This document shows, piece by piece, positions 5,546 to 24,161 of a stretch of 24,161 nt of DNA (the first letter of the stretch is position 1; every line of letters begins with the position of its first letter). Where the stretch lies: IMG/VR virus record IMGVR_UViG_3300036766_000234, positions 1 to 24,161 of that record; one strand, written 5' to 3'. Position numbers and translations under genes: made by a program. Origin of the DNA: a virus. The notes beneath the pieces are model-generated. The model made no database searches. It saw nothing but the letters and a program-made list of their open reading frames with translations, and had not been told where the DNA came from.

Positions 5546-6007
5546 TTACAGAATATTACCACACTTCTTGTCCTTAAGCTTAGAAGACAAAACTTGTAGC
5601 TTTTCCTTATCAGAAAAGATATCATATAGGTCGTATCCAGACACAGTTCCATTATCTACTATTCCGCCAGGATAGTGCATAATAGGTTCAAATGGTATGC
5701 TTATTTCTGCCAAAAACTTGGCGGTCTCATCAAACTTGGCTTTGTCAGAGTTTATTGACATTTGCTCTGCTAATGGCTTTATTGACAAACTTGCCACCAA
5801 TTCTCTATCTATAAGAGCGTGAAATGATAGCGATTGTGATTTAGTTAAAACATCATACAAATGATTGGCTGATATGACAATATCTACTTGAACTTCAGAA
5901 CCGTCAATAGGATTTCTACCGCCACCCCAAATAGAAATGGTTATTCCTAGTCGGCACATAAGCTGACAGGTCTTAATAAATTCGTCGTCTGTGCGAATTT
6001 TCACCAC
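5546..6007 (-). CDS. Unknown protein, 153 aa, possible two-fold repeat
   Basis: The frame starts at tandem GTG codons (6007 and 6004) overlapping the TGA of the sigma-like gene. GAGG lies just upstream, and the second GTG has the better spacing, so the true start may be 6004. No family recognised. The two halves resemble each other: a helix, then a Gly-rich turn (WGGGRNPIDGS or YPGGIVDNGT), then a matching segment HLYDVLTKSQSL or YDLYDIFSDKEKL. This suggests an ancient duplication of a domain of about 60 residues. No metal-binding or catalytic motif is visible. Overlap with the sigma-like gene suggests joint translation, and so perhaps a related regulatory role. Confidence 0.78.
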   Translation of the reverse strand: MVKIRTDDEFIKTCQLMCRLGITISIWGGGRNPIDGSEVQVDIVISANHLYDVLTKSQSLSFHALIDRELVASLSIKPLAEQMSINSDKAKFDETAKFLAEISIPFEPIMHYPGGIVDNGTVSGYDLYDIFSDKEKLQVLSSKLKDKKCGNIL

Positions 6008-6441
6008 TTTTCCTCACGAATATCAGACATCTGTTGTAGGATATCTTTGATTCGGGCATCGTTCTCGACGATTTTCTTAATTTTCTTGCGGGCACCACCA
6101 TAAACCTTTTTACCGTTCTTGTAATCTACGTTGCCGTTTAACGACTTGGTGATAGAACTTTGGTTTACGTTTAGCATCTTAGCTATCTCCATTTGAGTAT
6201 AGCCGTCCGCATAAAGTCGGATTACTTGTCTTTGTCTTTCGGTTAGGAGGTTATCCACTATCCTCCAGAACTCTTTGTTAAGTTGGTCTTCCAACTCGAT
6301 TAAATCTTCGTTATACTCAAAGGGATTAAGCCTTGCCGAGATACTGTCCTCATTGCAAAAAGCTTCCATCATATCATTTGAACAAACTGTCTCTAACAAT
6401 ACCCATTGATAGCGGTCGCTTCTGTTTTGTCTTTTAGTCAT
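6001..6441 (-). CDS. Sigma-70 region 4-like transcription regulator
   Basis: A 146-aa protein with a sigma region 4 type helix-turn-helix: LTERQRQVIRLYADG at about 66-80, then TQMEIAKMLNVNQSSITKSL at 82-101. In sigma factors this region contacts the -35 element. A short basic tail after the HTH (NGKKVYGGARKKIKK) is also seen in small sigma-like proteins of large phages, from memory of the group. Nothing in the N-terminal 60 residues looks like sigma region 2, so it is unlikely to open promoters alone and may act as a partial sigma or accessory factor that redirects host RNA polymerase. The ATG at 6441 has GGGG upstream. The 74-nt gap before it holds a 15-nt palindrome. HTH fold is confident; exact role is inferred. 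Confidence 0.75.
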   Translation of the reverse strand: MTKRQNRSDRYQWVLLETVCSNDMMEAFCNEDSISARLNPFEYNEDLIELEDQLNKEFWRIVDNLLTERQRQVIRLYADGYTQMEIAKMLNVNQSSITKSLNGNVDYKNGKKVYGGARKKIKKIVENDARIKDILQQMSDIREEKW

Positions 6442-7292: not shown

Positions 7293-7654
7293 TAGACATC
7301 TTTGTTAGTTGTTTTCAGCTTATCTTTCAACATAATCTTGAAAGGCTCGCTAAGGTGCTCATGTTTTTTAGCACATGACGGGCAAACTATATCATCCCCA
7401 ACGATTTTGGGCTGAGCTTCTTTTCCACAATTTTGACACTTGACACCAAAGGGAACAGTCTGTTTTTGTCGAAATTGTTTAAGGCTCTTCATGGTAGTCT
7501 TCATAAAATAAGTAATGCCATCAATCTCATTATTACAAAGCGGGCAATAGACCTTTTCAGTCTTTGGGTCCATGTAAGGCTCGATCTGCCCGCACTTTCT
7601 TACCTTTTTCTTATCATCAATATATGTGTTGTTGCAGATTGCTGAGATTGGCAT
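7292..7654 (-). CDS. Double zinc-ribbon protein, possible primase partner
   Basis: A 120-aa protein with two sets of four cysteines: C7, C21, C37, C40 and C73, C76, C91, C94. Each looks like a zinc ribbon (the second is C-x2-C, 14 residues, C-x2-C). A basic helical linker of about 30 residues separates them, and the C-terminus is Lys-rich. No enzyme motif is present. It starts at an ATG overlapping the dnaJ stop, with a GAGGT ribosome-binding site, and its own stop overlaps the primase-core start (TAATG). Since that primase lacks the usual N-terminal zinc-binding domain, this protein may act as the template-recognising part of a split primase. This is inference from context; a general zinc-ribbon nucleic-acid binder is the alternative. 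Confidence 0.8.
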   Translation of the reverse strand: MPISAICNNTYIDDKKKVRKCGQIEPYMDPKTEKVYCPLCNNEIDGITYFMKTTMKSLKQFRQKQTVPFGVKCQNCGKEAQPKIVGDDIVCPSCAKKHEHLSEPFKIMLKDKLKTTNKDV

Positions 7655-8574
7655 TACGATACCTCGTCGAGTAAATTAATTAGTTTATCTATATTTTGGG
7701 GATATTGTACTTCCAATATAACCCTCTGATTCCCTATGCCATCTACTCCGCAGTTAGGGATGACAACTTCTTCAAAATTTTTGGATTTCGGTTCTATTCT
7801 AATTTCTTTTTTGCCATGTATTGTATTTACAGTACGACTACAGCCCTTCAAAGCATCTAATAAAGAAACATTTTCATGGCTAACAACATTCCTACCTTCT
7901 AGTCTTAGTCCCGGCTCAGCAGTAACGGTTACATGGCAATAAGCATCTGTATGTTGGTCAGCAAACCCCATGAATGAGCCTGCGTAATTTCCCATTCCTT
8001 GAAGTCGTAAAGTAGTGTCATTTGTGATGCCCGCAGGAATACCCACATGCACAGACACGTCTGTCTTTAATGTTCCAATGCCTTTACAGGAGCTACACCC
8101 TTCAACATCAGACTTGCCATAACAATCAGTGCAAGTACTAATCATTACAGTAATACCTTGCCTAATAATAACCTGTCCTTTGCCGCCACATTTCTTACAG
8201 CCATTATTGAGATGGATTTCTCCATTACCGCCGCACTTTTGACACTTGCCTTGGCGAGAATACTTAACTTCTCGTTTACAACCAAGAACGGATTCTTTGA
8301 ATGAGATAGTTGCTTCAATAGTGATATGCTCTATTTGAACAACTTGCTGTCTATGATATGAGTGAGTTGGTCTCATATCCTCTCGTTCATTACTCTTACC
8401 ACTTTGTACAACTTGATAAGCTTCATTTATTTTCTTGAACTTGGCTTCGGCTCCCGGATCCTTATTAACGTCCGGGTGGAATTTCTTAGTTAGGTCACGG
8501 TACTTCTTCTTGGCCTCCTCAGGGGAGGCGCCCGAATCTAATTCTAAGATTGTATAGGCATCCTTCAACTTCAT
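7654..8574 (-). CDS. dnaJ: DnaJ/Hsp40 co-chaperone
   Basis: A J-domain co-chaperone that would stimulate the ATPase of an Hsp70 (host DnaK, since none is seen here) and deliver client proteins. The J domain spans about residues 1-58 with the HPD tripeptide at 33-35. The DnaJ zinc domain follows at 111-167 with four C-x2-C pairs (C111/C114, C126/C129, C148/C151, C160/C163) in normal spacing. The third repeat is degenerate (CTDCYGKS). A substrate-binding beta domain fills the C-terminal part. At 306 aa it is shorter than E. coli DnaJ (376), mainly because the Gly/Phe-rich linker after the J domain is replaced by a short polar segment at 59-78 and the C-terminal end is reduced. Its ATG overlaps the ruvC-like stop (ATGA) and has AAGGGTAAG upstream. 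Confidence 0.95.
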   Translation of the reverse strand: MKLKDAYTILELDSGASPEEAKKKYRDLTKKFHPDVNKDPGAEAKFKKINEAYQVVQSGKSNEREDMRPTHSYHRQQVVQIEHITIEATISFKESVLGCKREVKYSRQGKCQKCGGNGEIHLNNGCKKCGGKGQVIIRQGITVMISTCTDCYGKSDVEGCSSCKGIGTLKTDVSVHVGIPAGITNDTTLRLQGMGNYAGSFMGFADQHTDAYCHVTVTAEPGLRLEGRNVVSHENVSLLDALKGCSRTVNTIHGKKEIRIEPKSKNFEEVVIPNCGVDGIGNQRVILEVQYPQNIDKLINLLDEVS

Positions 8575-9128
8575 TTTTTCTTACCCTTGAGCTTCACCTT
8601 TCCTGCCAAAACAAATGTATGATAAAGTGCAACAGCTACACCGTCTGCCTTATCGTAATTTTCGACTTTTAGGGAGCCCTTTTTTCCGTACTCATAGGGG
8701 AATGTAATTCCTAAATGTTTTGCGACAAGCTCTGGCACATCTTCTTTTTTTGGAAAAACCTTGTTGAGCTTCAATCCATGACGAATTGTCATTACACTAT
8801 AAAGATTTGGTGATGCTCCAAGATAATCATAAGCTGCCAATCCAATCATTCTATTGAATGTAGTAAGCATGATAATAGTTTGAGCGGAGCTTTTACCTTT
8901 CATGAACTTAATAATGTCTTCAATTGCTATATAGTCTGGCTTATGGTCCTCGATTATCTTCTTCATATGATTTCTAGTATCAACTATTCTTTCTATAATT
9001 GAACCTTTCTTAATTGGCTTGTGATAGCCCATCTTTACCAACTTAATATCGTTAGTTGATTCATCTAAAGTCAGAACACACCATCCTATAGTCGAACTAG
9101 ACACGTCGAACCCAATGACCGTCTTCAT
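8571..9128 (-). CDS. ruvC: RuvC-like Holliday junction resolvase
   Basis: A 185-aa RNase H-fold nuclease of the RuvC group, expected to cut branched DNA made by recombination and replication before packaging. The four acidic positions of the family are visible: Asp8 in GFDVSSSTIGW, Glu70 in YIAIED, and Asp159 and Asp162 in YDKADGVAVAL. The DxxD spacing and length fit RuvC (173 aa in E. coli). The C-terminal tail is strongly basic. Its ATG overlaps the stop of the HNH gene and its stop overlaps the dnaJ start, so these genes are translationally coupled. No RuvA or RuvB is seen, as is usual for phage resolvases. A mitochondrial- or poxvirus-like resolvase is a less likely alternative. Confidence 0.9.
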   Translation of the reverse strand: MKTVIGFDVSSSTIGWCVLTLDESTNDIKLVKMGYHKPIKKGSIIERIVDTRNHMKKIIEDHKPDYIAIEDIIKFMKGKSSAQTIIMLTTFNRMIGLAAYDYLGASPNLYSVMTIRHGLKLNKVFPKKEDVPELVAKHLGITFPYEYGKKGSLKVENYDKADGVAVALYHTFVLAGKVKLKGKKK

Positions 9129-9745
9129 TTGTTGCTCCTATCAAAGAAAGCAACAATCATTTTTAACTCTTGCAAAGTTGCATCATTTTTAATTCTGTTA
9201 GCCCTATGTGATATAAGCTGTATATTGCCTGGAATATATCCCAACTCTGGAATTATTCTGTCTAAAGATGGCGAATCATCTTGCGATATTTTATTGTTGA
9301 ATTGTAGTTGGATACCTAACATCGGACATTTTCCATCTAATGGAAATGTATCAATAATATCTTGCTTACTTATTGTAAACGGTACGCCAGCAGTTTTGGC
9401 ACGTCTTTTAGCTGCATACCAAACAAATCTAAAACGATCTTCAGATCTTTTATGTTCTCTCCACTCTTTATTCTTTTGCTTTCTGAAATCACTTTTTTCA
9501 TACTCACGCAATGTATCTTTATTCTTTTCTCTCCACTCTTTATTGCGTCTTCTTACATCATCTTTATTTTGTTGATAGTATTCTTTTGATTGCTGAGATT
9601 TTTTTTCTTTGCGTCGCATATTGCCTATACGTGCTTTCTCGCGACAAGAGAAACAAAGTTTGAAATAACCTATAAGCTCAAGCTTTCGAAAATGAGTAAA
9701 AAACGCGTCTTCCCATTCCTGTTTACATGCGGTACATCTTCTCAT
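9125..9745 (-). CDS. Free-standing HNH endonuclease with N-terminal zinc finger
   Basis: A 206-aa HNH nuclease. Residues 1-36 carry a zinc finger (C4, C7, C31, C34). Residues about 40-105 are a basic, tyrosine- and glutamate-rich helical array with a repeated NKEWRE motif, probably DNA-binding. The nuclease module at about 138-200 has KCPMLGI, SLDRI (Asp162), GYIPGNIQLIS and RANRIKND, a pattern common in phage HNH proteins. Such genes often behave as homing endonucleases. It sits between the terminator of the ssDNA-binding gene and the ruvC-like gene, whose start it overlaps by 4 nt. No good ribosome-binding site precedes its ATG, so expression may be low. The same architecture recurs at 20790-21515. 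A host-defence or recombination-nuclease role is possible but less likely. Confidence 0.88.
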   Translation of the reverse strand: MRRCTACKQEWEDAFFTHFRKLELIGYFKLCFSCREKARIGNMRRKEKKSQQSKEYYQQNKDDVRRRNKEWREKNKDTLREYEKSDFRKQKNKEWREHKRSEDRFRFVWYAAKRRAKTAGVPFTISKQDIIDTFPLDGKCPMLGIQLQFNNKISQDDSPSLDRIIPELGYIPGNIQLISHRANRIKNDATLQELKMIVAFFDRSNK

Positions 9746-11305: not shown

Positions 11306-12499
11306 TTACTTAACCTTCTTACTCTTCTTTGTCTCATCTTCAACAACCGGAAGGGCCGCAAGGGCTGAAGCCTTTTTTGCTTCTTGCTCTTTGCGAGCGT
11401 TCTCTTGTTTATGATCACGAGCATCACTAATCTTTAGTTCTAACTCGGAAGATAATGCAGGATCATTCTTGATACCTTCGCAAAGCTTTGGAAAGCCTAC
11501 CCACTTCTTATCGCCATACTCGTGAGAGACGGCAGATGTCTTTTGGATAATATTGTAATCAACGGCTAGTTGAGCAATTTCTTCGTGTCTATCTATAACG
11601 CCGATTCCAAAGTTTACCTTGAATTCGCATTTGCGTGGCCATGGGCCGAACTTTGACTTCTCAATGGTTGCACGCATCGTGTGACCAATTTTGTCTTCCT
11701 TATCGTCAAGGATTTGCTTATCTTTAGCTTGGGAAGCTTCAAAGTAAACGTTGACAGACAAGAAGTGAGCATAGCTGTTGCCGCCAGAGAACGTATGGTC
11801 TGGGCCATAAGCATCCATGCTATCTTTCTTATGGTTGATAAAAATGAACGGAACTTGCGCTCTATTTGCATCAAGAGACAGCTTACGGAAAGTGGTAGTT
11901 AAGAACCTGGCTAGCAAGGCCATATTCATTTTACCTACGGCAGCAATATCTTCACCTGGAGGAATAAGTGCTCCAAGAGAATCTAGTACAACCATATTGA
12001 TGTTGAACTCGCCAGCCATAATCATGTCTAGTAAGCCATCTTTTGTCTTACCAACAAGTTGATGAGTCTTCTTATCTTCTTTAGGGACACCAAGAATCAT
12101 TTCGAAGCAGCTACGACCGATAACGGCCGTCTCACCATCTACAACAATGATTCGCGATACATCAAGACCTAAAGTCTCTGCCCAACGTGGATCGAAAGTG
12201 CCTTCAGCGTCAATGAACATTTGCTGAGCATTCTTGTCAGCTAGCTGAGCCTCTTTCATAGCAATCATAGCCATGAGAGTCTTACCGGAACCAGTTGGTC
12301 CGTAATACTGAATCAATCTACCCTTTGGAATTCCTCCGGAGGAAAGAGCGTCATCAAGTGCTAATGAACCAGTTGAAGTAACTGGCAGTTTCTCTCCAAC
12401 AGATTCGTGTGCGAATTTGAAATCTAATTGTTCGTCAGCTTCTGCAAAGCTGCGAAAAAATGCTGTTAGCTTATCTGACTTCTTCTTATCATCTGACAT
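11306..12499 (-). CDS. uvsX: RecA/UvsX-family recombinase
   Basis: A 397-aa strand-exchange ATPase that would form filaments on ssDNA and drive recombination-dependent replication and repair. The core runs from STGSLALDDAL (42-52). Walker A is GPTGSGKT at 67-74. The catalytic Glu is E99 in IDAEGTFDP. Walker B is MVVLDSLGAL at 169-178. The L2 region starts at FINHKKD (about 220-226), with the SGGN motif after it. Bacterial RecA has Gln at the position of His223 (Gln194 in E. coli); T4 UvsX, as I recall, has His, so the protein leans towards UvsX. The C-terminal 40 residues are Lys/Ala-rich and very basic. A strong ribosome-binding site (GGGAGATAAA) precedes the ATG. The upstream gene may encode its mediator. 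Confidence 0.93.
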   Translation of the reverse strand: MSDDKKKSDKLTAFFRSFAEADEQLDFKFAHESVGEKLPVTSTGSLALDDALSSGGIPKGRLIQYYGPTGSGKTLMAMIAMKEAQLADKNAQQMFIDAEGTFDPRWAETLGLDVSRIIVVDGETAVIGRSCFEMILGVPKEDKKTHQLVGKTKDGLLDMIMAGEFNINMVVLDSLGALIPPGEDIAAVGKMNMALLARFLTTTFRKLSLDANRAQVPFIFINHKKDSMDAYGPDHTFSGGNSYAHFLSVNVYFEASQAKDKQILDDKEDKIGHTMRATIEKSKFGPWPRKCEFKVNFGIGVIDRHEEIAQLAVDYNIIQKTSAVSHEYGDKKWVGFPKLCEGIKNDPALSSELELKISDARDHKQENARKEQEAKKASALAALPVVEDETKKSKKVK

Positions 12500-17000: not shown

Positions 17001-20000
17001 TCAATCATCCTCAGAATCTTCTTCTAAATCGATTAACCCTTCATCATATAAAGTGTCTTCTAATTGATCGAGTATGTCCTGAGGATTCTTAGGTTTTTCG
17101 CTATCTGAGTCCTTTGGATTCGAACCGGACATTTTTGCCTTAGCTTCTTTGAGATTGATTTTCTTAGCTTTCATATCTCCTGGCAAAGATGGCGGAAGTG
17201 AAATATTGTATAATTGATCCAATATGACGCCCATGTTGTCCTCGTAATTATTTGTATTACCGGCAAAGTGCAATGCAATACCTATACCAAACGCACCCTT
17301 TTTGTTAATTTCTTGAATTCTTTGTTGAACCATTTTCCATCTGTCTGGAAAGATTGTGCAACTGCATTGGTCGCCCTGCTTATCCTCAATCACGGCTTTG
17401 ATCATGGGCTGGCCATAATACTTGCCTTCCTTCTTAACTCTAAACTCAAAGAAGTCTCTAATCAAAACCCTTACTGAATTCAAATTAGTTTTGTCTTTTG
17501 AACGCTTAATATCATGAATTGAAACAGAATCTCCTTCGAAGAACTTGCCATAAGCTACGGCTGGCTTACAGATGAACGACTCTCCCAAGTAGTACTGCTC
17601 TAGAGCATATAGTTCTGGCATCGTCCACTCGCCCTCAGCGGGCCAAGGATAGATGAACGTCTCTACTGACGGGTCATGCTTCTTCAGCCATACCTGCAAT
17701 TTCTTACGATAGTCTGAGCAGTATAGAAATAGGAGCTTGCGAGGGACATTGAACGAGTCAAGCGCTCCACATGCTGCCAACGCCTGAATATTGTTTGCTC
17801 TAACTGACTTAGAACTAACTCTAGTCATGAAGTCAAAGAAGTCCTTGAAAGGCCTCTTTTCAATAATGTCCTTAATAGCTTCTTCGCCAACAAACTTGAT
17901 AGCATCCAAACCAGTAACTAATCTATTACCATCTTCAATCGAATAGACTAATTGAGCCTTATTAATATCTGGCGGAACTATCTTGACACGATGCTTTCGC
18001 AATTCCTTCTTAATCTTCTCAATATTGCTACTTGCATCTGGCGAGTTAGACTTAACCTCTGCCATTAAGTTGGCCATCAAGAACTCAACAGGATAATGGG
18101 CCTTAAGATAAGCAGTCTTATAGCTTGTCATAGAATACAAAATGGAATGAGACATATTGAAACCGTAACCTTGGAACTTGTCTACGACTTCGTCCCAGAT
18201 TCTTTTGGCAATAGCTTCGTTAACGTTATTGTTGTTTACGGCGTCTCTAATAAACTCAGCCCTCCACTCTTGAGCCTTCTTTGGATTCTTACCCTTTTCT
18301 TTGGTCAACTTACGCAAACGGTCGGCAGAGTGCAAACTCCAGCCAGCTACGTCCTGAGCGAGATACATAAGTGACTCTTCGTACAGACCGAATCCGAATG
18401 TATTGTTGAACGCTCGTCCAAGTGTTGGATGTAACAAAGCGAAGGGCTTCTTACCATCCTTAGTTAGGATGAAGTCATTACGCATATCTCTTGCAGAAGG
18501 ACGAGCCAACGAATTGATGTAGCTAATATCATTGACAGAGCGCGGTTTAATACGCCTACCTAAATCTATAGTGCCTCCGCTAGTTCCTAGCTGGAAAACA
18601 CAGAACGTATCTCCATTTGAGATAATATCATAAGCCTCTTGGTCATAAACATCATAATCAAGATTGTCAGGAGGCATAACTTTACCAGAAGCTTTAATGA
18701 GCTTCATCGTCTGACCAATGATGTCAAGCGTAGAAAGGCCAAGAGTATCCATCTTGACTAGACCGTTCTCTTCGGCCTTATCCTTATCGTACTCGATTGC
18801 TAGGGCGCCATCTTTATCTTTTCTTAAAGGTACAAGTCCGGTGAGAGGTCTTGCAGAGATAATGATACCGCCTGCATGTGTAGACCAAGCACGGTATTTG
18901 CCACAGATATCTTTATACTGCTCAAACTGTGGATATTTCTTGGCATACTCGGCGAAAAGTGGAACCTTTGTGAGAGCATCATCAATAGAATGGATTTCTG
19001 CTGGAATACAGTCAGCGACTTCATTTCCAATCTTAACTGCCGCATCTTTAGATCCGCCTAGCTCACAAGCTCTGGCGATGTCTCTAACATACACCTTTGG
19101 CGTGATGGTATTAACGTTGGACACGTGAGCCACGTTTTCCTCACCATATTTCTTTCGCAAGTAGTTCTGAACCTTCTCACGACCTGACGGAGCAAAATCC
19201 GTATCAATATCAGGAAAGCTTGACTTTTCCTTGTTGTGGAATCGTGCAAAGATCAAGTTATACTTTATTGGGTCAGCCTGATGGATTCCTAGCAAATATG
19301 CCACCAATGAGCCTCCCACGGATCCTCGACCCTCGCCAACTGCAATTTCATGACTTCTGGCCCAATCTATAAAATCAGCCACGATGAGCATGTAGCTGGA
19401 GAAGCCGTGGTACTCCAAAACGTCTAGCTCCTCATCTATACGCTTATCATATTGAACTCTCTGTTCAGATGAAAGGTTCTTCACACGAGAGTCAAAACGA
19501 ACAACGCAACGGTAGCGTAGAAATAATTTGTCTTCATCTAATTTCTGCAACTCATCTGGTTGCGTTGCTACCCATTCTCGGAACGCATCATAGTCAAGTT
19601 CGTCCTTGACTGGGAAAATTGGCAGCTCTTTACCTGATGGGTTTGAGTACTTAGGATCAATCCACTCTGGAGTTTCGCATAGATTAGCAAAGTAGATTGT
19701 ATTATCACACAATTGTTGCGCCGTCTCTTCTCCATAATTTCTAGAGAAGAAAGCTTTCACTTCATCCCCAGTCTTTAGATAGAAATCTGGAACGGTGTAT
19801 CGTAAACGAAAATTAGAGAAAACTGGCTGATGTGAGCCGATGGCCAAGAAGACATCGTGCGTCTCTGACTCTTCCTTGGTCAGGTAATGAGTATTGCAAG
19901 CGGCAACAACACGAATGTTGTGCTTCTTACCCAAATTGATAAGTTGTCTGTTCAAAAAGAACTGATCGATTTCATCATTAAAGATGTTCGATCCTCGCTT

Positions 20001-20534
20001 CATATTGTTGGGCTGAACTTCAATTCCAAGATTATCTCCAAAGAGCGCCTTGAGTTTGAGTAAAGTTTTCTCGGCTTCATCAGACTTGTGATTCATAAGA
20101 AGCTGGCTGATGATACCGTTGCCGCAAGCGGTGAGGCAAATCAATCCCTCTGAATATTGCTCAAGCAACTTCCAATCCAAAACGGAATATACACGCTTAC
20201 CAACGAAGGAGCTTTGATCGAAACCCTTCTTATTCAGAGTTAATAGGTTTCGGTAACCGACAGCATTCTTAGCTATCAGAATAACATGTCGAAATTTTTC
20301 ATTGATGTTCGATGCATCATCTTGAAAATAACATTCGCATCCAATGATAAGCTTAACGCCAGTATCTTTGGAAGCCTTCCAAGCGTCCCATGTGCCTGCT
20401 AACGACCCGTGGTCTGTTACTGCAATGGCTGTCTGCCCTAATTCTTTGGCACGTTTAAGAAGTGCCTTGGGCGTAATAAGAGAATCGAGAATAGAAAACT
20501 GAGTTTGATTATGCAATGAGACAAAATCGGTCAT
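17001..20534 (-). CDS. dnaE: DNA polymerase III alpha subunit (DnaE type)
   Basis: A full-length 1177-aa family C replicative polymerase (E. coli alpha 1160 aa). Order: PHP domain about 1-280; palm and thumb from about 370; catalytic aspartates D442 and D444 in FPDIDTDF and D596 in KMDTLGL, with GRGSVGGSL at 402-410; fingers with the HPTLGRAFN and YEESLMYLAQ motifs and the nucleotide-binding FNMSHSILYSMTSYKTAYLKAHYP block (about 792-815, shown in part only by key residues F792, H796, Y803); helix-hairpin-helix ending in AACGALDSF; OB-fold about 1000-1110; and an acidic tail. PHP motif I reads SLHNQTQFS where active family members have HLHxH, so two histidines are missing while TDHG is kept. 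No clamp-binding QxxLF motif is obvious. AGGAGGT at 20544-20538 gives strong initiation. It is DnaE, not PolC, because no exonuclease is inserted. Confidence 0.96.
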   Translation of the reverse strand: MTDFVSLHNQTQFSILDSLITPKALLKRAKELGQTAIAVTDHGSLAGTWDAWKASKDTGVKLIIGCECYFQDDASNINEKFRHVILIAKNAVGYRNLLTLNKKGFDQSSFVGKRVYSVLDWKLLEQYSEGLICLTACGNGIISQLLMNHKSDEAEKTLLKLKALFGDNLGIEVQPNNMKRGSNIFNDEIDQFFLNRQLINLGKKHNIRVVAACNTHYLTKEESETHDVFLAIGSHQPVFSNFRLRYTVPDFYLKTGDEVKAFFSRNYGEETAQQLCDNTIYFANLCETPEWIDPKYSNPSGKELPIFPVKDELDYDAFREWVATQPDELQKLDEDKLFLRYRCVVRFDSRVKNLSSEQRVQYDKRIDEELDVLEYHGFSSYMLIVADFIDWARSHEIAVGEGRGSVGGSLVAYLLGIHQADPIKYNLIFARFHNKEKSSFPDIDTDFAPSGREKVQNYLRKKYGEENVAHVSNVNTITPKVYVRDIARACELGGSKDAAVKIGNEVADCIPAEIHSIDDALTKVPLFAEYAKKYPQFEQYKDICGKYRAWSTHAGGIIISARPLTGLVPLRKDKDGALAIEYDKDKAEENGLVKMDTLGLSTLDIIGQTMKLIKASGKVMPPDNLDYDVYDQEAYDIISNGDTFCVFQLGTSGGTIDLGRRIKPRSVNDISYINSLARPSARDMRNDFILTKDGKKPFALLHPTLGRAFNNTFGFGLYEESLMYLAQDVAGWSLHSADRLRKLTKEKGKNPKKAQEWRAEFIRDAVNNNNVNEAIAKRIWDEVVDKFQGYGFNMSHSILYSMTSYKTAYLKAHYPVEFLMANLMAEVKSNSPDASSNIEKIKKELRKHRVKIVPPDINKAQLVYSIEDGNRLVTGLDAIKFVGEEAIKDIIEKRPFKDFFDFMTRVSSKSVRANNIQALAACGALDSFNVPRKLLFLYCSDYRKKLQVWLKKHDPSVETFIYPWPAEGEWTMPELYALEQYYLGESFICKPAVAYGKFFEGDSVSIHDIKRSKDKTNLNSVRVLIRDFFEFRVKKEGKYYGQPMIKAVIEDKQGDQCSCTIFPDRWKMVQQRIQEINKKGAFGIGIALHFAGNTNNYEDNMGVILDQLYNISLPPSLPGDMKAKKINLKEAKAKMSGSNPKDSDSEKPKNPQDILDQLEDTLYDEGLIDLEEDSEDD

Positions 20535-20643: not shown

Positions 20644-20793
20644 TTAATGGTTTATGAAATTATTGAAAACAAAATTATTTAAACGCTGAAATGTAATGCT
20701 ATTATCTCCGCACAAAAATGCACAATTTGACGCTCTGCTACACTCTATATGGTGCGCACTTCTGAATTTAGTAACATCTTTTACTTTAATCAT
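20644..20793 (-). CDS. Possible small ORF (49 aa) coupled to the HNH gene
   Basis: An ATG overlaps the TGA of the HNH gene as ATGA (20793-20790), followed by 49 codons to a TAA at 20644-20646. This fills most of the 255-nt gap before dnaE. The peptide is slightly basic, with three Cys (18, 24, 28), two adjacent His (14-15) and an Asn/Phe-rich end (RLNNFVFNNF). No family recognised, and there is no ribosome-binding site apart from coupling. It may be a real small protein or just an open stretch that remained after an HNH insertion. Confidence 0.35.
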   Translation of the reverse strand: MIKVKDVTKFRSAHHIECSRASNCAFLCGDNSITFQRLNNFVFNNFINH

Positions 20794-21515
20794 TTTCTAG
20801 CACCATCAATCAAATTTTGTTTAGCCGAATACGGACGCAAATTACTTAATGCCCAACAATCCTTAAAAGATTGATCTTCCATTGAAATATAAATGAATTG
20901 ACTGTGCGGAATAATATGATCTATCTGCCAAGTCCAAGTTGTTGGATCATTATCGTCCCAAGTCTTAGACTTATAATTTCCGTGGTTATTCCATGTCATC
21001 CATGACTCAAACTGATTTTCAAGATGTTCTTTCAATTCTTGCATGGTGTATGACAAAAACATAACTATAGAATCATAATTCTTATTCGATCCACTCTTTT
21101 TAATATTGTAACCAATAGCGCTTGATAATAATGCCCTAAGCTTGAATTTAGGATCTATCTTGCGGCGATCCTTCTGATAACTCTTCTTATATATGGCAAT
21201 TTTTTCTTCATTTTCTTTATTATATTTTTTAGATGATGCTACTATTTGAGCTTTATTGCGCTTATAGTAAGCCCTATTGTAGACAAGTTTATTATCTTTG
21301 TTTCCAATATAGTATAGCTTTCTATATTGAGAAGATTTCTGACCTTGTTGATATTTTTTAACTCTAATATGAATTAGTTTCTTATTATCTTGATAATAAG
21401 ACTTCTTACTAAAACTGATACAACTTTTACACCACCCACTTTTCTTGAGAAATTGGGCTGGAGAAAAATCTCCTTCATTTTTATCAAAATGACATTTATG
21501 GCATACTTTGGTCAC
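20790..21515 (-). CDS. Free-standing HNH endonuclease with N-terminal zinc finger
   Basis: A 241-aa HNH nuclease starting at GTG, whose codon overlaps the TGA of the peptidase gene (GTGA). The zinc finger is C5, C8, C29, C32. Residues 40-120 are a Lys/Tyr-rich helical array, likely DNA-binding. The nuclease module has the pattern MTWNNHG (173-179) and then WQIDHIIPHSQF, with Asp199-His200, and SNLRPYSAKQN (Asn225, Asn234), the common HNH layout where a WxIDHIxP strand precedes the metal-binding helix. The gene lies between the peptidase gene and dnaE. Codons and AT-richness look more extreme than in its neighbours, which fits an acquired homing endonuclease. Its architecture matches the HNH protein at 9125-9745, although the nuclease modules differ. 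Confidence 0.87.
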   Translation of the reverse strand: MTKVCHKCHFDKNEGDFSPAQFLKKSGWCKSCISFSKKSYYQDNKKLIHIRVKKYQQGQKSSQYRKLYYIGNKDNKLVYNRAYYKRNKAQIVASSKKYNKENEEKIAIYKKSYQKDRRKIDPKFKLRALLSSAIGYNIKKSGSNKNYDSIVMFLSYTMQELKEHLENQFESWMTWNNHGNYKSKTWDDNDPTTWTWQIDHIIPHSQFIYISMEDQSFKDCWALSNLRPYSAKQNLIDGARK

Positions 21516-22183
21516 GTTGTCTTATATATCATTGATTTCAGATCTTTTTCGTCAAGGCCTTCGCTATTGTTGTAAAAATAAGCAATGTTCTTAAATTGCT
21601 CTTTCCAAAACTTTTTATTTCGTGACTTTTTAGTAAGTAATGTTTGTAGGTCATCAAAATTGAGTCTACGATGACGGAATAGTGCATGAGCGACTATAGT
21701 TACATCTTGCCAATGAGCGTGAAGTTCATGTTGAACTTCTCTCATTAACTTTTGTTTATAAAGGCTTCTTTTAATACCTGGTGAGGCCAAATTGTACTTT
21801 ATTATAACACTTCTGGCTGCTTTATTATCATCAGTTGAACCATCGATAATAAAAGAAGGGGTCTGCCGGGATCCTGAAATACTCTTAAATAAAGACTTCT
21901 CAGCAATCAAGCCGGCATAATTAACTCCTATTTCAGCTCTAATTAGAGAGTTTAGCAAATCTAAATCCTCCATATTATCAAAATCGCTGGGAACGTCGTA
22001 ATGTGTAACTCCATGAATTCTTTTAAGTTTCTTATTCTCAAATACAGAAACTGAATTGACCTTCATGCAGTGCAAAAGGGCATAGATCGTATGTCCGGCC
22101 TCATGAAATGAGGTAGAAATAAACTCGTGAGTTTTCGTTACTTTCTTTCTAATTTCGGAAATAGACCCTGTTCCTTTTGCCAT
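21512..22183 (-). CDS. Stand-alone M41 (FtsH-type) zinc metallopeptidase
   Basis: A 223-aa protein with the FtsH peptidase signature FHEAGHTIYAL (His27, Glu28, His31 from the ATG at 22183) and a later segment AGLIAEKSLF, then GSTDDNKAARS, the counterpart of the FtsH region that carries the third zinc ligand, an Asp (about D120 here). The remaining sequence is helical, as in the M41 domain. No AAA+ domain and no membrane segment are present, so unlike FtsH it cannot unfold substrates itself. It might process folded or partly unfolded targets or work with another factor. A GTG at 22189 is an alternative start, but the ATG has GGGGTG just upstream. It follows two small unknown genes and the trigger factor gene, which suggests a role in protein quality or phage protein processing. 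Confidence 0.83.
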   Translation of the reverse strand: MAKGTGSISEIRKKVTKTHEFISTSFHEAGHTIYALLHCMKVNSVSVFENKKLKRIHGVTHYDVPSDFDNMEDLDLLNSLIRAEIGVNYAGLIAEKSLFKSISGSRQTPSFIIDGSTDDNKAARSVIIKYNLASPGIKRSLYKQKLMREVQHELHAHWQDVTIVAHALFRHRRLNFDDLQTLLTKKSRNKKFWKEQFKNIAYFYNNSEGLDEKDLKSMIYKTT

Positions 22184-22185
22184 TA

Positions 22186-22464
22186 TCACCCCGTTCTGAG
22201 AAGTAATGCCTCAAAATCATTGAGGATTTGGTCACAGTCAGCCTTCTTACACTTAGCGTTGATCTTATCAGCGCCGAATGGACCCGTCACTATTAAGTCC
22301 GGATTATCGGCATATAGCAATCCTGCCTGTGTAAAGTGTGCTGCTTCTGTGAACCCATTACTTTTCAGAACTTCGAGTAAAGCTTGATCAACTGGACGGT
22401 CCAGTTTGAACGAAATTTGCTTCCGCCCACAACAAGCTACTATTACGAACTTCTCAACCTTCAT
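22186..22464 (-). CDS. Unknown small protein with Cys residues, 92 aa
   Basis: A 92-aa protein. It starts with a strand (KFVIVACCGRK), followed by SFKLDRPVDQALLEVL (a helix), GFTEAAHFTQAGLLYADNPDLIVTGPFGADKI (two helices or strands with a Gly-rich turn; shown only in part, residues about 37-68), then the segment KCKKADCDQIL and a helix. Four cysteines (CC at 10-11, two near 72 and 77) could be a metal or redox site. The layout looks conserved and compact, but I cannot name a family. Start overlaps the previous stop (TAATG), and the stop overlaps the GTG alternative start of the peptidase gene. Confidence 0.78.
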   Translation of the reverse strand: MKVEKFVIVACCGRKQISFKLDRPVDQALLEVLKSNGFTEAAHFTQAGLLYADNPDLIVTGPFGADKINAKCKKADCDQILNDFEALLLRTG

Positions 22465-22784
22465 TAGGGTTCCTTGTTATCCAACTCAACTCCCTTGCTC
22501 TCTAAGCAAAGTAAAGCGTATTGGATCTTGGCCTGCTGATGCTTCCTTGCCTCACGATGAGGCGCAGAAAGCTCTTTAGCCAACTCTCTAGCTCCAGCTA
22601 GTTTCATATCTGCCTCTTCATCCTTATTGACTGTGTAGATGTTACCTTCACACTCAACAATGATCTTCTTGAGATCTTCTACGCTGGCCGAATCGGCAGT
22701 GTCCTTGAACTCAGGCATCTTCTTAATCATATCATCCCACTTCTTAGGCAAGCTAGTCAGTGGCCCGGCGTCTTTCTTACTCAT
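22464..22784 (-). CDS. Unknown small helical protein, 106 aa
   Basis: A 106-aa charged protein. Residues 10-30 carry the segment LPKKWDDMIKKMPEFKDTA. A helix follows (VEDLKKIIVECEGNIY), and then a long helix about 56-95 rich in Ala, Lys and Glu (AGARELAKEL, HREARKHQQAKIQYALLCLE). No motif for activity. It may be a small nucleic-acid or protein binding factor. The ATG at 22784 has AGGAGA upstream. It follows the trigger factor gene by 14 nt and overlaps the 92-aa gene by 1 nt. Confidence 0.78.
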   Translation of the reverse strand: MSKKDAGPLTSLPKKWDDMIKKMPEFKDTADSASVEDLKKIIVECEGNIYTVNKDEEADMKLAGARELAKELSAPHREARKHQQAKIQYALLCLESKGVELDNKEP

Positions 22785-22798
22785 GGTCTTTCTCCTAA

Positions 22799-24046
22799 TT
22801 ACTCAATTACTCTAACTGATTTAACAATATGATCCATCGCATGTTCATCTTTAATGCGAGAGAATAGAATTTGCAAATATCCAGAACGATTCATCTGTTG
22901 AATGATTTCATCTAAGCTCTTGTCCGTTTTTGTTTGCGACAAATTCTGCTTGATGATTTCAAATACTTCTTGATCTGTCAACTGAGCTTCTGGCTCATCT
23001 TCTCTTACCTTATCTAAGATAAGGGCAAGCTTAACATTTTTCTCTGCAATCTCAACTAACTTTTCCTTATCGGAGTCATTTAGGAGGTTCCAATCCATTT
23101 GGGATTGCTGTGCAAGATACTGCGCCTCTGACAAAGACATCCAACCTGGCACTGCCATTTGAGTGCCTTCAACAAGCTTCTTGGCTACCGACTCATGCAG
23201 GCGCATCTTGTTTGTGCCAGCTACGCGGGAGAAGGCTGCCTGAGCAACGAACTCTTGCAGGTCAGCAAAGTCCTTCCTCTCCATTTTCTTAGCCATCTCA
23301 TCATCAAGCGCACAAGGCAGTGTCTTGGAACCCATTACAAGACTAAGCTTGAAATGAATTGTCTTTCCAGACATAGATGGTAAGCCGCCCTCTGGAGCTA
23401 CGAAATCGAATTCGCGAGTTTCACCAAGCGTCATTCCTAGCATATTGTTATCAAATCCTGGCAGAGGACTCTTGCCTACAGTAAGCATTTCGCCCTGAGC
23501 ATTGAGAGATTCAACAGCTACACCATCGATTGTGCCCTCATAGTCTACGATGATATTGTCCCCGGTCTGAACGAAATCAACTTCGCTGTAGGGAAGTACG
23601 TCACCTAAACGAACTCGTAAATCTTGCATCATTAGTTCTGCAACTTCTACCTCAGTCATATCTTCATGCGGCTTTGGAACTTCCATACCCTTCCACTCCG
23701 GAGCAACGAACTCTGGTTTGGTATGAACTTCAAATTCACAGGTAAACTTACCGCCTTCCAACATAAGGTTGTTGAAATGTGGGGCTCCATGTGGGCGTAG
23801 TTTCTTGTCAAATAGCGTATTGTGATACGCATCTTCAGCCAAAGCTCGCTTGAGGGACTCCTCAATTTGCTGACGGTAATGCATCTTGATTGCATCCATC
23901 GAGGCCTTACCCTCTCTAAATCCTGGGACAGGCGCCTTCTTAAAAGCGTTCTGCACTTCATATCGCTTGTCCATTACTTCTAGCGCGGTGGCTTCGTAAT
24001 GTACGGACAACTTACACGGTTCTAATTCAGTAATTTCGATTTGCAT
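22799..24046 (-). CDS. tig: Trigger factor homologue (ribosome-associated chaperone)
   Basis: A 415-aa protein matching bacterial trigger factor (432 aa in E. coli) along its length. The ribosome-binding domain has the signature VPGFREGKASMDAI (40-53; GFRxGK at 42-47), the loop that docks on ribosomal protein L23. The peptidyl-prolyl isomerase domain (about 155-240, FKBP type) has VDYEGTIDG, LPGFDNNMLGM and the strand ETREFDF. The C-terminal helical arms (about 110-150 and 245-415) are also present. All three domains are therefore present and uninterrupted, so it should bind translating ribosomes and shield nascent chains. The ATG at 24046 has GAGG just upstream. Neighbours are unknown small genes and an M41 peptidase; dnaJ lies elsewhere in the window. 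Confidence 0.95.
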   Translation of the reverse strand: MQIEITELEPCKLSVHYEATALEVMDKRYEVQNAFKKAPVPGFREGKASMDAIKMHYRQQIEESLKRALAEDAYHNTLFDKKLRPHGAPHFNNLMLEGGKFTCEFEVHTKPEFVAPEWKGMEVPKPHEDMTEVEVAELMMQDLRVRLGDVLPYSEVDFVQTGDNIIVDYEGTIDGVAVESLNAQGEMLTVGKSPLPGFDNNMLGMTLGETREFDFVAPEGGLPSMSGKTIHFKLSLVMGSKTLPCALDDEMAKKMERKDFADLQEFVAQAAFSRVAGTNKMRLHESVAKKLVEGTQMAVPGWMSLSEAQYLAQQSQMDWNLLNDSDKEKLVEIAEKNVKLALILDKVREDEPEAQLTDQEVFEIIKQNLSQTKTDKSLDEIIQQMNRSGYLQILFSRIKDEHAMDHIVKSVRVIE

Positions 24047-24055
24047 TTGTTCCTC

Positions 24056-24161
24056 TTACTTTAAGTCTACTATTGGATTGCAATACATTTTGAATGGCTT
24101 AATCCTATTAGTCTTATCTTCAATGTTCAGCTCAAACTTGAGATTAAGATCTGATGCTTGA
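24056..24161 (-). CDS. C-terminal end of an unknown gene, cut by window edge
   Basis: The last 34 codons of a frame that enters from the right edge and ends in TAA, 9 nt before the trigger factor ATG. The visible end is mixed charged and hydrophobic (LKFELNIEDKTNRIKPF, then YCNPIVDLK). Too short to assign. No other minus-strand frame is open here. Its closeness to the trigger factor gene suggests the same transcript. Confidence 0.6.
   Translation of the reverse strand, partial: QASDLNLKFELNIEDKTNRIKPFKMYCNPIVDLK

Follow-up and report, generated by a model that had tools for sequence, protein, structure and literature searches.

The stretch of DNA analyzed here (the window) comprises 24,161 bp and is an IMG/VR viral record in its entirety. 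Near one of its ends lies a gene for trigger factor (TF), the bacterial cotranslational chaperone positioned at the site where newly made proteins emerge from the ribosome (Table 1). The open reading frame starts with ATG, has no internal stop and encodes all domains in TF order, with the FKBP-type domain inserted between the N- and C-terminal domains. The probable ribosome-binding site is located 6 nt upstream of the ATG, and several relatives carry TAAGAGGAA(A)CA ahead of their TF genes. Judged against the curated Pfam cut-offs, three out of three models matched: Trigger_N (PF05697; E = 1.2e-21, 78 bits vs a cut-off of 22.2, residues 1-137), FKBP_C (PF00254; E = 5.3e-6, 27.1 bits vs 21.1, residues 159-214), and Trigger_C (PF05698; E = 4.6e-8, 33.7 bits vs 22.7, residues 261-408).

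Table 1 Features of the TF gene and its surroundings in the window.
Feature	Coordinates	Strand	Extent	Basis or remarks
3' end of gene upstream of TF	24056..24160	-	34 codons + stop	homology to L005/L006
GAGG, probable ribosome-binding site of TF gene	24052..24055	-		read in sequence
TF gene	22799..24046	-	415 aa + stop codon	ORF, Pfam, model
N-terminal ribosome-binding domain	23711..24046	-	residues 1-112	Pfam Trigger_N, Foldseek to 1oms
Docking loop GFREGKAS	23900..23923	-	residues 42-49	
FKBP-type domain	23321..23596	-	residues 151-242	Pfam FKBP_C; active-site pocket eroded
C-terminal helical chaperone domain (arms)	22802..23320	-	residues 243-415	Pfam Trigger_C, model helices
Protein next downstream of TF	22464..22784	-	106 aa	cluster 4, 58/61 loci; no Pfam/PHROG match
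Uncharacterized protein	22186..22464	-	92 aa	cluster 8, 51/61 loci; no Pfam/PHROG match
M41/M50-like metallopeptidase, HEAGH motif, without AAA domain	21512..22189	-		cluster 12, 48/61 loci
DNA polymerase III alpha subunit (PolIII alpha)	17001..20534	-		conserved downstream neighbor of TF
RecA/UvsX-like recombinase	11306..12499	-		
DnaJ, HPD motif and zinc-centre cysteines	7654..8574	-		

The TF gene belongs to a module of replication and recombination genes (SbcCD-like, nuclease, PolIII alpha, RecA, SSB). Besides PolIII alpha, the RecA/UvsX-like recombinase, and DnaJ, the window encodes SSB-like (the SSB of this module), RuvC-like, and primase proteins. The metallopeptidase gave weak Pfam matches below the cut-off, its HEAGH motif being assigned by motif count. 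Two ORFs without a Pfam match (20790-21515, wedged between conserved genes of the TF module, and 9125-9745) resemble HNH-type homing endonucleases by eye, and a 146-aa protein (6001-6441) has a sigma-70 region-4-like helix-turn-helix. In some relatives (L030, L235, L248, L255, and L257), the PolIII alpha matches are 4-5 kb long or split into two ORFs, which suggests inteins or introns.

The predicted structure agrees with the domain assignments. A profile built from seven phage homologs retrieved only TFs from the PDB, the best being E. coli TF (1w26, 3.5e-26). An AlphaFold model based on an alignment of 36 sequences reached a mean pLDDT of 87.6 and replaced an earlier AF2 model from 7 sequences, which was poor (pLDDT 66.7). 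Its best PDB matches are the TFs of E. coli, Thermotoga, Vibrio, and the chloroplast; compared with E. coli Tig, it matches 1w26 and 2vrh at 7.7e-22 and 5.3e-21, respectively, over ~430 alignment columns. The whole-chain TM-scores against PDB TFs are moderate (0.56-0.66) because the domains differ in orientation, whereas the N-domain alone superimposes on the E. coli TF N-domain (1oms) with a Foldseek TM (target) of ~0.8 and an rmsd of 2.3-2.9. The FKBP-type fold is present in the model, and its C-terminal domain is made of helices at 249-410. The proposal of the preliminary description that the gene encodes a full-length TF is thus borne out by the three Pfam models, the complete 415 residues, and the TF-like predicted fold.

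The ribosome-docking motif of TF reads GFREGK at residues 42-47 of the window protein. Inspection of this loop in 80 distinct phage TFs revealed that Gly42 and Arg44 are unchanged in all of them, while Phe43, Gly46, and Lys47 are found in 71, 74, and 70, respectively; the docking Phe is therefore absent from 9 of the 80 and the Lys from 10. Position 45 is Glu in the window TF and Pro or Lys in the sampled bacterial TFs, and the Pro that follows the motif is replaced by Ser.

The isomerase pocket, unlike that of bacterial Tig, is eroded. In the window TF, the equivalents of Phe177 and Tyr221 are Val and Gly, that of Phe168 is Tyr, and those of Phe198 and Phe233 are retained. The same pattern extends across the lineage: of 61 phage TFs, 41 have Gly at the Tyr221 equivalent and 47 have Val, Ile, or Leu at the Phe177 equivalent, with the Phe168 equivalent mostly Tyr and the Phe198 and Phe233 equivalents mostly retained. 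Isomerase activity is dispensable for the function of E. coli TF, and for this reason we did not take these residues as defining a TF. Apart from the isomerase pocket, every sequence feature tested places the protein in the TF family. The C-domain is the least conserved of the three domains, with a mean pairwise identity among phage TFs of 38%, vs 46% for the N-domain and 45% for the FKBP domain; the chaperone body is nevertheless whole (at least 400 aligned residues) in 76 of the 80 distinct proteins.

We retrieved full-length TF homologs from at least 60 loci in IMG/VR, with identities of 31-72%, on contigs of up to 480,838 bp. The window is a fragment, and the genes for terminase, the ribosomal protein bS21, and peptide deformylase (PDF) fall outside it. 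Among the larger TF contigs, 16 out of 20 carry a tailed-phage (Caudoviricetes) terminase matching phrog_2, and a GpA_ATPase terminase was detected in L054 (54.3 bits) and in 9/9 further contigs. A search for the T4-type capsid protein Gp23 gave no match, but the control was likewise silent, so this search was uninformative; tail sheath matches were all below the cut-off (14/20 contigs). One gene order is common to 61 loci: SbcD-like, SbcC-like, dNMP kinase, an uncharacterized gene, Fn3-associated, PD-(D/E)XK nuclease, TF, two small uncharacterized genes, HEAGH peptidase, and PolIII alpha. That the TF is phage-encoded, as first proposed, is supported by its presence in this same order in many phage contigs of up to 481 kb.

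Since TF is otherwise a bacterial gene and no more than 115 bp separate the window copy from the contig end, we had to consider that a host gene had become attached to a phage contig, or that the gene had been captured once, and recently, from a host. The 105-bp gene fragment upstream, however, has its homolog immediately upstream of TF in L005 (a 358,993-bp contig) and L006, with a BLOSUM62 score of 147 against these two vs 59 against L038. We also considered this fragment as the end of the PD-(D/E)XK nuclease, an assignment rejected because its score was below those of shuffles. The recurrence of one gene order in 61 loci argues against a joined or captured host gene as well, as does the position of all sampled bacterial TFs outside the phage clade, at most ~33% identical to a phage TF. 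Such an origin is exceedingly improbable: a chimera can be dismissed in practice, and the synteny in independent contigs refutes both chimera and capture.

In order to place the phage proteins among bacterial Tig sequences, trees were built with 115 rows and, with bootstraps, 62 rows. One branch parts the phage from the bacterial TFs (SH-aLRT 100; 100/100), and the stem on the phage side measures 0.95 changes per column. The bacterial TFs were picked by motif and similarity, and several phyla are missing, e.g. Bacteroidota and Cyanobacteriota; with this incomplete sampling, the nearest bacterial source (sister group) cannot be named. A search of genome contigs with the phage alignment identified no close bacterial relative among them, a pattern-based result that is not proof of absence.

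The gene is carried by every member of the lineage in which it could be looked for. Searching with PolIII alpha gave 78 loci, 75 of which contain TF; the other three start at the polymerase, and TF is missing there because the contig ends upstream of it, so that TF is present in 75/75 loci that extend upstream of the polymerase. Of the true homologous loci retrieved with the nuclease, 75/75 contain TF; five more loci, with 25-27% identity, were unrelated. Over 42 loci, TF distances correlate with those of the polymerase (Mantel r 0.967, 0/999 permutations) and, over 53 loci, with those of the nuclease (Mantel r 0.863), which fits vertical inheritance. For the pairs close enough to have a dS below or near 1, the TF dN/dS was ~0.05 (L106/L108), 0.07 (L002/L017), and 0.13 (L039/L041), values indicating that the gene is under purifying selection. 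The eroded isomerase pocket could suggest a functionally decayed passenger, but this is very unlikely given the purifying selection, the full length of nearly all copies, and the presence of TF in every testable lineage member. We conclude that TF is a core gene passed down within a single lineage of uncultivated megaphages (giant bacterial viruses).

The expectation that no phage version had been described held in our searches of INPHARED, PHROGs, BFVD, and open-access papers. BFVD contains no viral protein of the TF fold at E 0.001. The open-access PMC papers searched yielded no phage TF; this scope could miss one published in a subscription journal or as a preprint. Matches in INPHARED (21 records, below 32.1% identity) were rejected as bacterial or unverified DNA rather than genuine phage TFs: Acinetobacter phage MD-2021a has tig-clpP-clpX beside metX/metW, i.e. 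a bacterial chromosome, and the tree places the record of Staphylococcus phage SA 1306 Kay, like two fecal records, with the TFs of Bacillota. The phage-labelled INPHARED records CAKLQH020000005 (in which tig-clpP-clpX is present), CAKLQF020000005, OR844993, and MT83xxxx contain bacterial tig DNA and likely reflect contamination or mislabelling. The PHROG family phrog_26774 scores 355-455 bits on bacterial TFs vs 101 on the window TF and therefore models the bacterial-type protein. As far as searched, the phage setting of TF has no previous description.

Other genes acting on the ribosome or in folding accompany TF. PDF and DnaJ genes were each found in 20/20 large contigs and bS21 in 18/18 (e.g. 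at 192482-192640 of the L002 contig), whereas DnaK was found in 0/20. In the five contigs compared, bS21 and PDF lie 12.4-15.0 kb and 8.8-10.9 kb upstream of TF, respectively, and DnaJ and terminase lie 12.7-16.1 kb and 26.8-30.8 kb downstream. A simple pattern recognizes a C-terminal SEC-C-like zinc motif in 20 of 26 PDFs (L002:1004-1531 and 25 other loci), and the L002 PDF has a Pfam SEC-C match. A thioredoxin-like protein encoded at L002:1831-2139 and 30 other loci has the CxxC motif in 0/31 copies and is therefore probably not a redox enzyme.

From these observations, we propose that the phage TF is probably a ribosome-docked core protein of the lineage that handles nascent chains in infection. 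It would dock on the host ribosome beside the tunnel exit through its GFRxGK loop, as suggested by the invariant docking residues, and its C-terminal arms, whose retention is the basis for a chaperone step, would cradle newly made proteins, beside or in place of the host TF. Since the isomerase pocket is degraded, the protein would probably act mainly as a holdase/foldase and not as an isomerase. The products of the bS21 (initiation), PDF, and DnaJ genes, encoded within ~30 kb in the same genomes, may work with TF, a cooperation suggested by their co-occurrence only: PDF would act at the tunnel exit to strip the formyl group, and DnaJ, because the phage has no DnaK, would hand clients to host DnaK. 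Host TF already matters in phage infections: in its absence, phage Chi loses more than 95% of its plating efficiency (PMC10399903), and Arg45 in its docking motif is ADP-ribosylated by T4 ModB (PMC3014915). Speaking against the proposed function are Glu at position 45 and Ser after the motif in the window copy, the loss of the docking Phe or Lys from some phage TFs, and the lower conservation of the C-domain.

The preliminary description had linked the protein to folding during virion production, which our results do not support. Its gene lies in the replication/recombination module, 27-31 kb from terminase. Expression early or midway in infection is therefore no less likely, and this location speaks against confining the role of the protein to virion production. 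The same location among replication genes would also suit a free chaperone acting off the ribosome on large phage complexes, either replication proteins or virion parts. The title of PDB entry 3gty proposes the Thermotoga TF as an assembly chaperone, our model matches this entry, and DnaJ is phage-encoded too. We nonetheless consider an off-ribosome function improbable, as the invariance of Gly42 and Arg44 (80/80, at low overall identity) is hard to explain without docking.

Docking itself could serve another purpose, namely to displace host TF and alter the fate of host proteins rather than to fold phage proteins, perhaps also changing how SRP or other exit-site factors gain access. Several findings would fit such a competitor: no part of the motif is better kept than its docking residues, the proteins have lost the isomerase pocket, their C-domain varies more than the other domains, and the docking arginine is also where T4 attacks host TF (PMC3014915). 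A bare competitor would, however, need only the N-domain, whereas the whole chaperone body is retained in 76/80 proteins, making displacement as the main function an unlikely account. Beyond the proposed docked chaperone, bS21, PDF, TF, and DnaJ could form a dedicated set for taking control of the host ribosome at every stage between initiation and the tunnel exit, producing ribosomes equipped with phage factors and a TF devoid of prolyl isomerization; we offer this wider reading tentatively, as a possibility on balance somewhat doubtful.

A TF fixed across a megaphage lineage together with bS21, deformylase, and DnaJ would mean that the phage takeover of translation reaches the tunnel exit, beyond initiation and elongation. 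The ~80 divergent natural TFs, with docking kept and the isomerase pocket lost, make the long-debated role of the isomerase domain directly testable. The phage TF also ties in with the known phage effects on host TF, those of T4 ModB and in phage Chi.

Compared with bacterial Tig (E. coli PDB 1w26 and 2vrh), the phage TF is alike in its three-domain order, its predicted fold, its docking Gly-Phe-Arg-x-Gly-Lys, and its length (415 vs 432 residues). It differs in sequence (21-25% identity to four bacterial TFs), in forming a separate clade, in its eroded isomerase pocket, and in its neighbors, which are phage replication genes instead of clpP-clpX. The translation and proteostasis genes described in huge phages include bS21, PDF, and elongation and release factors (PMC7162821, PMC9723584). 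Those phages and the megaphage lineage both have large genomes equipped with genes acting on the ribosome, with bS21 and PDF common to both, but the term trigger factor is absent from these two papers, whereas TF is a fixed member in the megaphage lineage. Moraphages (PMC12619734) and jumbo phages (PMC7824862) encode DnaJ/DnaK and other heat-shock chaperones, and trigger factor is named in neither paper; DnaJ is shared with the megaphage lineage, which has no DnaK, and the moraphage and jumbo-phage chaperones are not ribosome-docked factors. Lastly, both T4 ModB and the megaphage lineage concern the contact between TF and the ribosome. Arg44 of the phage TF corresponds to Arg45 of E. coli TF, the uL23 contact and ModB target (PMC3014915); T4 modifies the host TF, whereas the megaphage lineage brings its own TF, in which that arginine is invariant.
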